Origin: Geobacter sp. SVR
Lineage (GTDB): Bacteria > Desulfobacterota > Desulfuromonadia > Geobacterales > Pseudopelobacteraceae
DNA length: 64,000 bases
Direction: 5' to 3'
NCBI RefSeq assembly: GCF_016865365.1
Contig: NZ_AP024469.1
Location: 1,851,001-1,915,000, forward strand
In this document: positions 2,155 through 8,223 of the stretch, piece by piece
Numbering within the stretch: position 1 is the stretch's first letter
How the letters are laid out: each line of letters begins with the position of its first letter
Translations under genes and position numbers: made by a program
Notes under the pieces: generated by a model
Seen by the model: only the letters and a program-made list of their open reading frames with translations
Database searches by the model: none
Told to the model about the DNA's origin: nothing

Positions 2155-2252
2155 GGAAGCACGTCGGTCGCTGGTGGGCCGCCCAGTCTTCAAAACTGGT
2201 GGGGGGGATGAGAAATCTCCCCGGTGGGTTCGATTCCCATGTGCTTCCGCCA
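2155..2252 (+). tRNA. selC: tRNA-Sec, anticodon TCA
   Basis: Selenocysteine tRNA that reads UGA. It has an 8-bp acceptor stem (GGAAGCAC with GTGCTTCC), the long acceptor/T arrangement and the long variable arm typical of tRNA-Sec, the anticodon loop CTTCAAA with TCA, a TTCGATTC T-loop, discriminator G at 2249 and encoded CCA at 2250-2252. It implies that the organism makes selenoproteins, although no selA, selB, selD or obvious in-frame-UGA gene lies in this window. The 3' end is duplicated at 5555-5571. Confidence 0.96.
2229..2245 (+). repeat. attL-like direct repeat within selC 3' end
   Basis: These 17 bases of the T-loop and acceptor strand recur at 5555-5571 with one mismatch, giving a 14-base perfect core GATTCCCATGTGCT. 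Tyrosine integrases often use tRNA 3' ends as attachment sites, and an integrase remnant starts 97 bases downstream. I read this as the left attachment site. Confidence 0.7.
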
Positions 2253-2341
2253 TCAAGGTAACTAGTTGATTTTGTTGCAATAGTTTGAGCCTTGGTTCTC
2301 CTGTGTAACCTGTTTTGCTACACAGAAAAGGATCAGGGCTT

Positions 2342-2772
2342 ATGTCGTCTTACCTGCTTAACAGGAACGGACACTATCACGTTCGTATCCGCATCCCCTC
2401 TGATCTCACCGCAACCTTACCCGGCATGGAGCTTGTGAAGTCCCTCAAGACTCGGGACGCTAAAACTGCACGGCTCACGGCTCTCCCTTTCCGTCAAAAC
2501 ATCTTCAGAACGTTCACTCTATTGCGTTCCGGCTTTATCAGTGCTGAGCAGGCGCGAGAATCCATTGACAGGGCCATGAATCGGTCACGAAGGGTTCGCC
2601 TGCCGCTTCCCCTATGAACGCTCCTGCGCCCAATTTGGAGCCGTCAGCGTGTGAGCCTCCACAACTCCTTCCGAGGGCTGAGCAACCGGGACAGTCACGG
2701 AGGCAGTCACCGCTACTCTCGGAGATAGTTGAGCAATACCTGAATGTACGAGCCCCCAGGATGCTCCAATAA
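2342..2772 (+). pseudogene. Degraded tyrosine-type integrase, N-terminal part only
   Basis: The first part (2342-2617, about 91 residues) begins MSSYLLNRNGHYHVRIRIPS and continues LVKSLKTRDAKTARLTAL. This is the N-terminal module (DUF6538 type) of phage/island tyrosine recombinases. It stops at 2617, and a second frame opens at 2614 (ATGA overlap) running to 2772. That piece contains LLSEIVEQYLNVRAPRM, which resembles the start of the SAM-like core-binding domain. The catalytic domain with its R-H-R-Y residues is absent. This is therefore a truncated, frameshifted relic rather than an active integrase. Its position just after selC is the classic place for an island integrase. Confidence 0.75.
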
Positions 2773-2875
2773 CACCACCTGCATGGAATCCCAACACCAA
2801 ACTCATACGGTAGCACCGCGCTGTCAGGCAGATCTGAAGTATAATATTTTGTAGAACTGCTGCCGAGGTAAACAG

Positions 2876-5500
2876 ATGGAAAAATCGCCGGTAGAAATAC
2901 TCATTTTTGAGGACTCTCCTGCGCAATCCATGGTGACAATGCTAGCGGAATCCCGGAAACCTGTCTTCTCGGTGCAGCAGGTCAGAACTCTCGCGGACGG
3001 ACTTAGCCTGCTGCGGAGCCGGAACTTCGATGCCATCATAGTGGATCTCGATCTTCCGGACAGTCAGGGGCTTGAAACCGCGTTGGCTGTACGGGACCAG
3101 ACGAGACAGACGCCGATCATCGTAATTACCGGTTCCGACGATGAGGAAGCCGCTCTGGAAGCATTGCAGACGGACATCCACGACTATCTGAACAAGGTAG
3201 AAGTAACCGGCGCTCTGTTGAAACACTCGATACGGTCCGCCATTCAAAGACAGCGCGATTTACAGGCACAAAGGATGTCTGAGCAGCGGTTTTATTCTTT
3301 TATGAATAACCTTGCAGCCCCGGCTTGGATCAAGGATTTGGATGGCCGATACGTGTTCTGGAGCGCGGGAAACGCCCCCCCTCTCAGCAGTTTCTTCCCC
3401 GACCGTACAGGCAAAACCGACGAAGATGGATTCCCGCAGGAGACCGCGCGACAGCTCCGTGAGAATGATGCACGGGTACTTGCCACAATGACGAGCCAGC
3501 AAATGGTAGAGGTCATGTGCGTCGACGGTGTTGAGCATCATTTCATCGTCAACAAGTTTCCGATTCTTGGTGCCGAAGGGAAAGCGACAGGTGTTGGCGG
3601 CATTGCCCTAAACATCACCGAGGGCGTGAGGGCGACTGAGGCGCTGCGCCTGAGTGAAGCACGGTTTCGGGCTTTACATGACGAAAGCCCTGTCATGATC
3701 TTTACTCTTGATGCGGATGGTACCATTATCTCGACCAACTCAGCCTGCACCGATCAGCTGGGCTATCGGGACTATGAACTGACAGGCCAGTCGGTTCTGA
3801 AGATATTTCATGAAGAGAACCGCTCCGCCATTGTCCAGCAGTTGGAAAGGTGCAGGCAGAACCCGGACCAGGTGTACCGATGGCAGTCCCGCAAGATTCG
3901 CAAGGACGGGGAGCTGCTGTGGGTGGAGGAAACGGCCCGAGTTGTGTACAACCTGAACGGCGCCCTGAATGTGCTGGTGGTCTGTCAGGATATCACTGAG
4001 AGGAAGCGGGCAGAAGAGGCGATCCTGAAATCGGAGAAAAAGTTTGTAACGGTTTTTCAGAAGGCCCCGGCATTGCTTGCCATCACTACTCTGAAGCATG
4101 GGATATTCATTGATGTTAACGAAACAATGCTGCAAACACTAGGATACCGGCGAGACCAAATGATCGGCCGGTCGGCATTGGAGCTCAACCTCTGGGAAGA
4201 TTTGTCTGACCGTAACGCAATTCTGGAAGCCCTTGAAGAAACGGGATCGGCCAACAACATCGAAGTCCGGATCAGGGGGAAGGACGGCCAAACCCATACC
4301 TGCCTCTTTTCCGCTGAGTACATCGGTTTTAACGGGGATCAGTACATACTAAGCCTCGTGGAAGACATCACCGCTCGCAAGGTTATGGAGGAAGCACTGA
4401 GACAGAGGGAAGAGACACTCCGGCTTTTTGTCGAACATTCCCCCGTACCCATCGTCATGGTTGACAAGGATATGAAGTACGTCTATGCAAGTCGCCGCTG
4501 GTTTAAAGCCTTTGGCCTGAAAGACATGGACGTTCGTGATCGCAGCCATTACGATATCTTCCCCGATATACCGGAAAGATGGAAAGAGGTTCACAGACGT
4601 TGCCTTGCAGGAGCAACGGAACGGAATGAGGCTGACCATTGGGAAAGGGACGACGGCACATCCGTCTGGACTCATTGGGAAATCACGCCGTGGTACAAGA
4701 ACTCAAAAGAGATCGGGGGACTGGTCATTCTTGCTGAGGATATCACCGCCCGCAAGCAGGCGGAGCAAGAAATCGTGCGGCTAAATGCCGAGGTTGCTGC
4801 TCGGGCCGTCGAACTGGAGAAAGCCAACCTTGAGTTGGAGGCGTTCAACTACACTGTGGCCCATGACCTGCGCAGTCCATTGAACCTCATCAGCGGCCAC
4901 TGCCAGATAATGATGGAGGCATGCGGTGTCACGCTGGATGAAGAGTGCAGAGCTTACCTGCAGCAGACATACGACGGTGCTTTGCGGATGAATAAGCTGA
5001 TCTCGGCCCTGCTCGATTTTTCCCGCATGGCCCACGCCGAACCGCACCGGGAAAATCTCGATCTGTCAGCCATGGCACTGGCTGTGGCTGCAGAATTGAG
5101 GCGGAGCGCACCGGAACGCAATGTCGACTTCAGAATCAGCGAAGGGGTTGTGCTTGACGGGGACCGGGAACTGTTGCGGGTGGTCCTGGACAACCTTCTC
5201 GGTAACGCTTATAAATACACGTCGAAGCGTGATGACGCAGCAATAGATTTCGGCGCGACCGAGATAGATGGCGAACCCGCATGTTTCGTACGCGATAATG
5301 GCCCCGGATTCGACATGAGTGATGCCGGCAACCTCTTCATCCCATTTCGGCGGCTCACAGGAACCTCGGAGCAGAGAGGCTTCGGCATAGGACTGGCCAC
5401 GGTAGACCGCATCATTCGGCGCCACGGCGGGCGGATATGGGCCGAGGGGGAACCGGGAAAGGGGGCGACGTTTTACTTCACGGTTGGTGCAAGGGGATGA
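2876..5500 (+). CDS. Receiver-PAS-PAS-PAS-PAS histidine kinase
   Basis: A soluble sensor kinase of 874 residues with no membrane segment visible. An N-terminal receiver domain (about 5-125) has phospho-acceptor Asp57 (DAIIVD), Thr85 and Lys107. Four PAS domains follow (about 140-250, 255-380, 390-505, 515-635), three ending in the DIT.RK hinge typical of PAS/PAC. A coiled linker leads to the HisKA dimerisation helix with His663 (VAHDLRSPLN). The ATPase domain has an N box (DNLLGNAYKY), G1 (DNGPGF) and G2 (GFGIGLATV). The input is probably another kinase plus small ligands or redox via PAS. It lies between the selC-derived repeats, so it is likely cargo of the decayed element. No partner regulator is adjacent. 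Confidence 0.9.
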   Translation: MEKSPVEILIFEDSPAQSMVTMLAESRKPVFSVQQVRTLADGLSLLRSRNFDAIIVDLDLPDSQGLETALAVRDQTRQTPIIVITGSDDEEAALEALQTDIHDYLNKVEVTGALLKHSIRSAIQRQRDLQAQRMSEQRFYSFMNNLAAPAWIKDLDGRYVFWSAGNAPPLSSFFPDRTGKTDEDGFPQETARQLRENDARVLATMTSQQMVEVMCVDGVEHHFIVNKFPILGAEGKATGVGGIALNITEGVRATEALRLSEARFRALHDESPVMIFTLDADGTIISTNSACTDQLGYRDYELTGQSVLKIFHEENRSAIVQQLERCRQNPDQVYRWQSRKIRKDGELLWVEETARVVYNLNGALNVLVVCQDITERKRAEEAILKSEKKFVTVFQKAPALLAITTLKHGIFIDVNETMLQTLGYRRDQMIGRSALELNLWEDLSDRNAILEALEETGSANNIEVRIRGKDGQTHTCLFSAEYIGFNGDQYILSLVEDITARKVMEEALRQREETLRLFVEHSPVPIVMVDKDMKYVYASRRWFKAFGLKDMDVRDRSHYDIFPDIPERWKEVHRRCLAGATERNEADHWERDDGTSVWTHWEITPWYKNSKEIGGLVILAEDITARKQAEQEIVRLNAEVAARAVELEKANLELEAFNYTVAHDLRSPLNLISGHCQIMMEACGVTLDEECRAYLQQTYDGALRMNKLISALLDFSRMAHAEPHRENLDLSAMALAVAAELRRSAPERNVDFRISEGVVLDGDRELLRVVLDNLLGNAYKYTSKRDDAAIDFGATEIDGEPACFVRDNGPGFDMSDAGNLFIPFRRLTGTSEQRGFGIGLATVDRIIRRHGGRIWAEGEPGKGATFYFTVGARG

Positions 5501-5554
5501 AGAAATCGCTATCGCTATATAAACAAATGTATAAACGTCATGTTATGTGATTAA

Positions 5555-5571
5555 TTTGATTCCCATGTGCT
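5555..5571 (+). repeat. attR-like direct repeat of selC 3' end
   Basis: TTTGATTCCCATGTGCT matches tRNA-Sec positions 2229-2245 at 16 of 17 bases. There is no tRNA structure around it, so it is an isolated copy of the tRNA end, as expected at the far boundary of an integrated element about 3.3 kb long. Confidence 0.7.
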
Positions 5572-5613
5572 AAAAAAAGGACTTAGGTGCACTTGCCACC
5601 TAAGTCCCTTTTT
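5571..5613. terminator. Bidirectional intrinsic terminator
   Basis: An 11-bp perfect stem (GGACTTAGGTG at 5579-5589 with CACCTAAGTCC at 5597-5607) is flanked by a run of A on the left and T on the right. It can end transcripts from the kinase on the plus strand and from the carbonic anhydrase on the minus strand. Confidence 0.85.
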
Positions 5614-5631
5614 GCTTGTACGCATATACAG

Positions 5632-6186
5632 TCAACAATCTGGAACTTTTGTAAGCTTCCCTGTCTCTGAACACATAAGGAAACCATGGATATTTATATC
5701 CTTTGGTACCAATGGATGATTTCTTATAAGCGAAACGGATTTGGCTACAGATTCCTCGGCATTTTCAAAACCTTTCAACCAACTGCAGAAATCTATACCG
5801 CAATAGTTGATCATCTCTATTTGGGTCTTCGGGATATTCCTATCCAGCATTTTCTGAATTAGCTTTGAAGTATCAAGTCCTTGCATTCCACAGTCACTAT
5901 GACCAATAACTAAAATCTCTTCTATATTCAGATCGTATATCGCAAGCAACAAACTTCTCATCACACTGCCAAACGGATGTGAGACAACTGCACCAGCAGT
6001 CTTTATTACGTGTATGTCTCCATTCTTAAAATTGAGTGCTGCTGGTAAGAGTTCCATAAGCCGTGTATCCATGCAGGAAAGTACGGCAGTTTTCTTGTTA
6101 GGATATTTTGTCGATTCATATTGCTTATACTTTTCTTCTTCGACAAATTTAAGGTTATATTCAAGCATGTTATCTATCGTGCTCAT
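5632..6186 (-). CDS. Beta-class carbonic anhydrase
   Basis: Interconverts CO2 and bicarbonate with a zinc ion. The zinc ligands and dyad are visible: SCMDTR (Cys, Asp, Arg) near residue 38 and GHSDCG (His, Cys) near residue 97, the standard beta-class arrangement. The length is 184 residues. The start at 6186 is chosen because AAAGGGGG lies 8-9 bases upstream; an upstream in-frame ATG at 6210 has no such site. A TTGACA-like box is present near 6234-6239 on this strand. The gene is clearly richer in A+T than its neighbours, which suggests a different origin. It lies just outside the right boundary of the selC element. Confidence 0.92.
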   Translation of the reverse strand: MSTIDNMLEYNLKFVEEEKYKQYESTKYPNKKTAVLSCMDTRLMELLPAALNFKNGDIHVIKTAGAVVSHPFGSVMRSLLLAIYDLNIEEILVIGHSDCGMQGLDTSKLIQKMLDRNIPKTQIEMINYCGIDFCSWLKGFENAEESVAKSVSLIRNHPLVPKDINIHGFLMCSETGKLTKVPDC

Positions 6187-6637
6187 TTTACGTATCCCCC
6201 TTTCTCGCATTAATTACTATCAAGGGCCAAGGATGTCAATGTAAGGAAGACACATAGACCAAAGAAATACTCATATCGGCAAACGGCTGGTGCAGGTCCG
6301 GGCTACCTGGCCTAGCACCAGAGATTATCAGAGGTGCATTCATATCCCCACACACATAACCCCAGATCCATGTCATGCCTGAGTTACAAGGTGTCTCAAT
6401 TGTGGGTGACTTTGCTGCACGAGGTATGATATTTTTCTTCCGGCAGGATAGAGACAAAGTAGCTTCAGGGGTGGCTGATTAAGGTCGAATTTAAAAAAGA
6501 CTTCATAATCAGGTGATTACCAGAAAATTTTGCACTTGCCATGTTTCGCCATCCATTGTAACCCCCTTTGCAGCCAACCGATTCCTCGGTTTATTCGCGA
6601 TGCAATTTCAAACTCGGAAAAAAGTCGGAGAAAGGCC
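6187..6637. other. Intergenic region without a supported gene
   Basis: About 450 bases between the divergent carbonic anhydrase and FKBP genes. Short open frames here have no ribosome-binding site or recognisable product. An imperfect hairpin (CTGGTGC ... GCACCAG, 6283-6321) is the only clear structure. Promoters for both flanking genes are presumably here. Confidence 0.5.
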
Positions 6638-7797: not shown

Positions 7798-8223
7798 ATG
7801 AAAAACAGACTATTCACTGCGGTCATTATCGTGGCAGCCATGACACTGCTTGCAGTGCTTGCCTTTCATGTCAGGATTGGGGCAACTGCCGACTCGGTGG
7901 CGGTTTTGAGCACCAAGGGCATGACCTGCGGCAGTTGCTCGAGCACGATCAGCAAGGCCCTGGAAGCGATGAAAGGGGTGGCGGCCACCGAGATTGATGT
8001 CGAAGGGGGCTGGGTCGTGGTGGGCTATGACACGAAGAGCGTCAAGCCGGAGTCGCTGGCAGAGAAGGTCAGCAGCGTCGGCTTCGGCAGTAACGTTCAT
8101 CTGGTGCTGACGCCGGAGCAGTTCCGGCAGATTACCGGAAGAGATATCGGCGCAAAAGCGGCCCGGGAGTCGGGATGTTGCGGCGGCAAGGGTGGCGGAT
8201 GCGGAACCGGCAAAAAAAGCTGA
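7798..8223 (+). CDS. Membrane-anchored or exported heavy-metal-associated (HMA) domain protein
   Basis: 141 residues. An N-terminal hydrophobic helix (about 6-24) works as a signal anchor or signal peptide, so the domain should face the periplasm. The HMA domain (about 34-105) has the copper-chaperone motif GMTCGSCSSTI with Cys44 and Cys47. A short C-terminal tail is rich in Cys and Gly (GCCGGKGGGCG) and may bind further metal. As the first gene of the cluster it probably collects or senses Cu(I)/Ag(I) or a similar soft metal; the metal itself is inferred from the cluster. Confidence 0.85.
   Translation: MKNRLFTAVIIVAAMTLLAVLAFHVRIGATADSVAVLSTKGMTCGSCSSTISKALEAMKGVAATEIDVEGGWVVVGYDTKSVKPESLAEKVSSVGFGSNVHLVLTPEQFRQITGRDIGAKAARESGCCGGKGGGCGTGKKS

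Follow-up and report, generated by a model that had tools for sequence, protein, structure and literature searches.

Islands targeted to tRNA genes, as characterized in the part of PMC2704930 devoted to them, carry an integrase adjoining the tRNA gene, are bordered by direct repeats of 16-20 bp and usually measure 10-200 kb. One example given there, AGI-3 of Escherichia coli, sits in selC. For Geobacter, the same part refers to Butler et al. (2007) on islands that are suspected to be old and whose integrases have deteriorated; the relevant excerpt of PMC1924859, taken here as that work, names tRNA-Gly, tRNA-Ala, tRNA-Met and tRNA-Val, and deals with an aromatics island of 300 kb and those next to it.

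The locus described here lies in a 64,000-nucleotide stretch of DNA (the window), and positions 2246-5571 of this stretch are probably the remnant of an integrative element inserted by a DUF6538 tyrosine recombinase into the 3' end of selC. To the extent that PMC2704930 outlines such islands, the locus resembles them in its tRNA 3'-end target, adjacent integrase, near-perfect direct repeats, deviating composition and cryptic integrase, but differs from their usual 10-200 kb in that only 3.3 kb separate the repeats, and in that the right repeat is truncated. It shares its target gene with the E. coli selC islands, whereas the bacterial lineage is different and the integrase is a DUF6538 stub. 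Like the old Geobacter islands of the PMC1924859 excerpt, it belongs with tRNA genes in what is seemingly the same bacterial group, although the gene concerned is that of tRNA-Sec and not of tRNA-Gly, Ala, Met or Val; selC would thereby extend the set of tRNA sites at which elements of this group insert. As a genomic island the selC element is of an ordinary kind; what is unusual is a hairpin preceding the integrase that is common to many related elements.

The tRNA-Sec gene, its end repeats and the genes around them

The intact tRNA-Sec gene (selC; 2155-2252, forward strand), the putative insertion target, was identified by ARAGORN and by Rfam model RF01852, whose match spans 2155-2248 with 77.8 bits against a gathering threshold of 47. 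Part of its 3' end, TTCGATTCCCATGTGCT (2229-2245, forward strand; the attL side), recurs on the same strand as TTTGATTCCCATGTGCT at 5555-5571 with 16 of 17 bases identical. At all other places in the window, on both strands, the 17-mer has at least four mismatches, and the pattern TTYGATTCCCATGTGCT has two sites in the 4,717,360-base genome, both at the selC locus, against none for a reversed control. The repeat pair claimed in the earlier note is therefore real, and is the only such pair in the genome. After the repeat core, tRNA-Sec reads on TCCGCCA whereas the distal copy reads on AAAAAAA, so that the final 7 tRNA bases are missing from the right repeat; the distal copies of three selC loci in other genomes (L120, L121 and L209) extend to the CCA end. 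Base composition changes immediately 3' of the tRNA-Sec gene. The locus thus combines insertion at a tRNA 3' end that leaves the tRNA intact, a direct repeat on the far side and an adjacent integrase, here a stub.

The start codon of this stub (2342-2617, forward strand) lies 90 bases 3' of the tRNA-Sec end. Its frame (2342-2614) matches PF20172 (DUF6538) with E 2e-14 over profile positions 1-59 of 60, the N-terminal domain occupying 2351-2527 before the stop; an NCBIfam search of the stub named no family. Reading in a second frame revealed a weak remnant with approximate limits (2581-2772, forward strand), for which a Pfam search up to about 2772 gave no match, and which is collinear with part of the intact integrase of G012 at E 0.05. 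Neither piece contains a catalytic Phage_integrase domain detectable with Pfam. Comparison of 2342-2772 with tyrosine recombinases hence agrees with the description of an integrase relic that has lost its frame and its catalytic domain, the PF20172 match covering the first part and the weak G012 match the remainder. Having lost the catalytic part, the element would be unable to excise by itself.

As previously stated, one large sensor kinase lies between the repeats. Its frame (2876-5500, forward strand; 874 aa) is open and intact, with the Pfam domains Response_reg (the receiver), PAS, HisKA and HATPase_c, and the joint presence of the latter two in an open frame predicts an active histidine kinase. 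Third-position GC content (GC3) is 0.60 in the stub and 0.63 in the kinase, against 0.82 in PyrD and 0.77 in DsbD2; the FKBP gene, outside the repeats, has a GC3 of 0.60 too, and composition alone therefore cannot mark the edge of the element. A run of kinase homologues, 39-51% identical by segment, occupies approximately 554-575 kb of the same genome, so that the kinase need not have arrived with the element. To see whether the kinase travels as cargo of known elements, we screened 21 of 54 loci of kinase relatives for tRNA genes; selC was not among them, and the only tRNA gene was a tRNA-Leu some 7.5 kb away from the match.

Beyond the right repeat, a hairpin search located a terminator-like hairpin of 11 pairs directly 3' of the copy (5579-5607, forward strand), but terminator-like sites are not enriched in the region (5 versus a shuffle mean of 5.3). 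A divergent, AT-rich carbonic anhydrase gene follows on the reverse strand (5632-6210; Pfam Pro_CA; GC 0.38) within a segment, 5576-6240, of 38.6% GC. Across 277 genomes, the top-scoring match to this protein has 42% identity, and the highest identity among the matches listed is 44%. Foreign DNA consequently extends past the right repeat, which does not bound it in the way that had been proposed.

Stub relatives and selC loci in other genomes

The integrase family of the stub occurs beside tRNA and tmRNA genes, one of which is present within 42 of the 60 DUF6538 loci fetched (39 of 56 distinct). The two closest relatives of the stub, 62-63% identical, are found at a tRNA-Sec 3' end in G067 (L208) and G094 (L211), the latter with only a 27-nt tRNA-Sec 3' fragment followed by a DUF6538 stub. 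Further selC-linked relatives are those of G066 (L209; 47-49%), where 27 nt of the tRNA end recur 15.6 kb further downstream, G045 (L210; 49%) and G012 (L097; 41%), where the integrase is intact (DUF6538 plus Phage_integrase, E 9.9e-16). Relatives ranking between these occupy other sites, namely G016 (58-60%, no tRNA seen), G054 (56%, tmRNA), G074 (56%, tRNA-Gln), G076 (50%, no tRNA seen) and G071 (48%, tmRNA), and sequence alone therefore does not fix selC as the target. One scan of viral contigs detected no stub relatives.

Among the matches listed, 150 DUF6538 open frames comprise 41 shorter than 160 aa, 21 of 160-349 aa and 88 of at least 350 aa, some of them being cut by contig ends. Since short DUF6538 frames are common, we rejected the idea that the stub is a special feature of the selC locus. 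The selC stub and its relatives point instead to repeated loss of the integrase catalytic part beside a retained stub, and the tRNA-proximal part may survive because deletions reaching into the tRNA are selected against.

Our search for an empty site, with selC joined to the right flank seen here, covered the selC flanks of 40 loci, FKBP, and the right flank in two same-genus genomes (G001 and G002); the selC flank of G002 and its flank of the collinear block were also traced back into this genome. No such site was present among the relatives examined, and in none is the flank collinear. Collinearity with the same-genus genomes resumes near window position 7868 (G002) or 8703 (G001), on contigs different from those that carry their selC, and gene order around selC and the right flank is scrambled among the genomes compared. 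The kinase is absent, at E <= 1e-30, from all 40 of the other selC loci, some of which are short, and is thus probably not ancestral there; a kinase shared by all relatives at selC, which would have spoken against an insertion, was not seen. The earlier note's expectation of strains lacking 2246-5571 with one uninterrupted repeat is accordingly not supported.

At least seven loci of relatives have a terminator sequence 3' of selC, which varies among them and was not found in this genome with up to three mismatches. Distal tRNA-end copies accompanied by other gene content occur at 2 of the 40 selC loci, L121 (24 nt) and L120. At L120, 14.2 kb separate selC from an 18-nt tRNA end, beyond which lies a presumed selB-like gene, while at L101 a presumed selB-like gene follows selC directly; the two loci seem to form an empty and filled pair for a different selC element.

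Origin of the region

The reading of the region as a decayed element in selC builds on the observed repeats, stub, selC-linked stub relatives (the two closest at tRNA-Sec ends) and deviating composition, and on the distal copies seen elsewhere; it is weakened by the failure to find an empty site and by the foreign DNA past the right repeat. We infer the following order of events. Insertion would have restored tRNA-Sec while duplicating the tRNA end at the opposite border, after which the element would have shed most of its body together with the catalytic part of its integrase and become immobile. What remains would be the tRNA-proximal leader, the stub and, as putative cargo, the intact sensor kinase of deviating composition, and we can only infer that the kinase is the reason for the retention of this remnant. 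The carbonic anhydrase block, a second foreign segment, would later have abutted or cut the right repeat.

Two or more stacked insertions might also account for the region. The stub would then form one element's left end, kinase and carbonic anhydrase would have arrived separately through host recombination or further elements, and the repeat at 5555 would be an internal scar instead of the right border of the element to which the stub belongs. The AT-rich carbonic anhydrase immediately outside the repeat, the truncation of the right copy, the return of same-genus collinearity only at about 7868, the kinase relatives in the same genome and the tRNA-Sec-end fragment preceding the stub of G094, which attests that such scars exist beside stubs, are all consistent with this history. 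We nevertheless consider it rather unlikely, because stub and kinase are alike in composition and are enclosed together by the sole pair of repeat copies in the genome. The two histories overlap, both including a decayed selC element.

The resident homologues likewise raise the prospect that the kinase is a host paralogue, copied from the resident run into an old selC scar and never cargo of the element, but this appears improbable. In the N-terminal tree, where no fork is fully supported, the kinase sits on a long branch apart from the residents, its sister in the C-terminal tree is a G006 protein (99/98, again on a long branch), and its GC3 is below the 0.72-0.77 of the residents. A chance match at the right repeat, leaving the stub alone as a mobile relic, would fit an unbroken exact match of only 14 bases and a copy ending 7 bases before the tRNA end. 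Nonetheless, a match with at most one mismatch has a probability of 3.0e-9 per position, or 4.8e-4 expected over eight 17-mers and 20 kb, the pair is the sole one in 4.7 Mb and other genomes show the same architecture, all of which makes coincidence very improbable.

A leader hairpin of DUF6538 integrases

According to the excerpt of PMC8450116, the transposase of ISPpu9 is controlled by secondary structure in its 5'-UTR. Between selC and the integrase start, the window contains an inverted repeat (2288-2340, forward strand; fold z -4.3, L178) with Shine-Dalgarno-like bases in its 3' arm. Strong leader hairpins (z < -2) characterize 42 of 56 distinct DUF6538 integrase leaders, compared with 16 of 200 controls, and the Shine-Dalgarno is mostly paired in them. 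Runs of at least six T at the hairpin foot occur in only 2 of the 42, and an ordinary terminator was rejected on these grounds.

It is possible, and we propose it tentatively, that a built-in RNA hairpin silences integrase genes across the tRNA-inserted DUF6538 family, the palindrome burying the Shine-Dalgarno and blocking translation of read-through transcripts that originate at the strong tRNA gene. The arms would vary between elements yet keep pairing around a conserved GGTACAC-type core, and the decayed element of the window would have retained this leader. Should the hairpin act as RNA, it would account for a recombinase gene staying unexpressed despite read-through from the adjacent tRNA gene, and would resemble the ISPpu9 case of PMC8450116, as excerpted, in being a structured leader of a mobile-element recombination gene; unlike that insertion-sequence transposase with its small RNAs, the leader here belongs to an integrase and is squeezed between tRNA and start codon.

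Arm mismatches over the 42 loci comprise 67 G-T and 15 A-C, a bias that would favour RNA. Outside the Shine-Dalgarno they number 24 and 11 (p 0.04), and 17 and 11 (p 0.34) in 30 dissimilar loci, counts inflated because the inverted repeat was chosen as the best per sequence. With the G-T excess smaller in these subsets, the hairpin may act either as RNA or as DNA. When 33 of the 42 strong-hairpin leaders (z < -2) were aligned with MAFFT, RNAalifold returned no structure, and by eye the alignment displaces the arms. Rfam matches of the leaders of five loci at a loose threshold were all below family cut-offs, and the titles and abstract openings retrieved in a literature search describe no such integrase leader. 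The leader core is common to loci with different tRNA or tmRNA targets, and the window leader is 67-71% identical to those of three tRNA-Sec-end loci (L208, L210 and L211), with z 9.1-9.8 against shuffles.

Repeats, integrase remnant and kinase at selC

The tRNA-Sec gene, selC, is intact at 2155-2252, and bases 2229-2245, within its 3' part, recur at 5555-5571 with one difference. These tRNA-end repeats, claimed in the earlier note as the bounds of an integrative element, are real: the two copies are the only ones in the whole 4.7-Mb genome (reversed control, 0), no further site in the window comes within fewer than four mismatches of the 17-mer on either strand, and the chance expectation of such matches is about 5e-4 in 20 kb. 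The right copy is incomplete, the tRNA continuing with TCCGCCA where the distal copy continues with AAAAAAA. Between the repeats, a frame opening at 2342 matches the N-terminal integrase domain DUF6538 almost in full (59 of 60 positions, E 2e-14) and ends at 2617, while a piece in a second frame, reaching to about 2772, weakly resembles the following part of the integrase (E 0.05 against an intact relative). No catalytic domain was found in this stub or in the second-frame piece, in keeping with the claimed integrase relic. DUF6538 can belong to tyrosine recombinases, since a selC-linked protein of 434 aa in the related genome G012 carries both DUF6538 and Phage_integrase (E 9.9e-16). Besides the integrase remnant and a sensor histidine kinase, no plausible gene was recognised in the list of open reading frames between the repeats.

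The kinase gene (2876-5500) has an uninterrupted frame of 874 codons and encodes receiver, PAS, HisKA and HATPase_c domains. The same genome harbors a run of homologous PAS histidine kinases at about 554000-575500 (G000:C1, loci L239 and L240), several of which share an N-terminal part of 249 residues with the window kinase at 52-58% identity, longer segments being 39-51% identical. In a tree of the N-terminal part, where no fork has full support, the window kinase falls outside the members of the run, and its GC3 is 0.63 versus 0.72-0.77 in the run kinases. By these sequence measures, therefore, the window kinase is not a recent copy of the genome's other kinases. It may have come with the element, and its role is uncertain.

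Beyond the right repeat, an AT-rich carbonic anhydrase gene (5632-6210, 38% GC) has a best identity of 44% among the 277 genomes of the class, 97 of which, the window's own included, give matches at E <= 1e-25. GC content is 29% over the 75 bases up to the end of the right repeat and 38.6% over 5576-6240. Given this low GC and the divergent carbonic anhydrase, the deviating DNA runs past 5571, and the clean two-ended element of the earlier note is too simple a description. Collinearity within the genus resumes near 7868 (G002) and 8703 (G001), on contigs that do not hold the selC of those genomes. The likely history is that the element decayed and that another block joined at or within the right repeat. 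The finding of a decayed element in selC is real and was for the most part rightly read, its right boundary being uncertain; such an element is of a known kind.

selC in related genomes

A search of 57 related genomes (own included) yielded selC matches in 52, and 40 other loci were fetched. As in the window, pyrD lies upstream of selC in nine of these. None of the 40, several of them short, contained the kinase at E <= 1e-30 (weaker matches not being displayed) or the carbonic anhydrase and FKBP at E <= 1e-5, and the selC locus of G001, from the same genus, stops 13 bases past selC. A relative of the stub is present at one of the 40 (L097). Distal tRNA-end copies on the same strand occur in two (L120 and L121), with gene content differing from that of the window. 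In L121, selC is followed by about 11.5 kb that include a gene integrase-like by eye and end in a perfect 24-nt tRNA-end repeat. Three genomes (L101, L124, L125) have a gene named by eye as selB-like directly after selC; in L120, selC and such a gene are separated by 14.2 kb and a tRNA-end copy, and L120 set against those three resembles a pair of filled and empty sites.

At least seven loci (L089, L091, L105, L115, L119, L121, L122) present a similar terminator directly after selC; a scan of the window's genome for this terminator, allowing up to three mismatches, gave no match. Two or three tRNA-Sec matches occur in four of six genomes of genus g6 (G014, G019, G024, G029; L098-L100, L105, L106, L110, L111, L115, L116), and G024 carries two full-length copies 2.5 kb apart on one contig.

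Relatives of the stub and their targets

Matches to the stub were found in 79 of the 277 genomes of the class (own included). Genes for tRNAs were sought in 60 fetched DUF6538 loci (two search returns of 30 each, 56 distinct), and 42 of the 60 (39 of the 56) carry one or more tRNA or tmRNA genes. Among the fetched loci, tRNA-Sec is present in those of the window, G067, G066, G012 and G045, and in G094 a 27-nt tRNA-Sec 3' fragment precedes the stub in place of the gene. The closest relatives, G094 and G067 (62%), thus lie at tRNA-Sec ends, and the next ones lie elsewhere: G016 (58%, no tRNA seen), G054 (56%, tmRNA), G074 (56%, tRNA-Gln), G076 (50%, no tRNA seen) and G071 (48%, tmRNA). The subfamily therefore has several targets, of which selC is one. 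Only one of the six tRNA-Sec-end cases, G012, has an intact integrase gene; in the other five it is short or interrupted, and tblastn with the G012 integrase detected no catalytic part, although a strongly diverged domain could escape such a search. In G066, a tRNA-end copy of 27 nt lies 15.6 kb downstream of selC.

An inverted repeat in the leaders

The part most worth following is an inverted repeat occupying the interval between the tRNA and the integrase start codon, at 2288-2340 in the window and likewise in most leaders of the DUF6538 loci (L148-L207). Folding of the 56 distinct leaders of the 60 loci (100 shuffles each) was compared with that of 200 gene starts from selC loci (60 shuffles each). 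Median fold z was -4.3 in leaders, the value of the window leader itself, versus 0.01 in controls, with z < -2 in 42/56 versus 16/200 and z < -4 in 33/56 versus 6/200; the 14 leaders failing the -2 threshold include those of the selC-linked G066 and G045. At least four of the five Shine-Dalgarno bases were paired in 43/56 leaders, as against 81/200 controls. When inverted repeats were scored with G-T pairs disallowed, 28/56 leaders and none of 56 shuffled sequences reached 10 or more. In 33 of the 42 leaders scoring at least 8, the foot of the hairpin is no more than 4 nt from the start codon, the start codons having been picked by script from Shine-Dalgarno and position (TTG in 15 of 42, some possibly wrong).

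Across 30 dissimilar leaders, all four Watson-Crick pairs occur at 21 of 23 stem positions, and standard pairs fill 515 of 575 cells versus a shuffled mean of 252, with the caveat that the top-scoring repeat was selected from each leader. These features are consistent with an RNA hairpin, which would hide the ribosome site and carry a conserved putative protein site in its loop. The strand test for an RNA hairpin becomes weak when the Shine-Dalgarno bases are removed, so the inverted repeat may instead be a DNA palindrome. The leaders share a conserved core made up of a GGTACAC-like stretch, a few bases, ATTTG and GTACAC. The window leader is 67-71% identical to those of G067, G045 and G094, 57% to that of G012 (z 3.7) and 47% to that of G066 (z 1.4).
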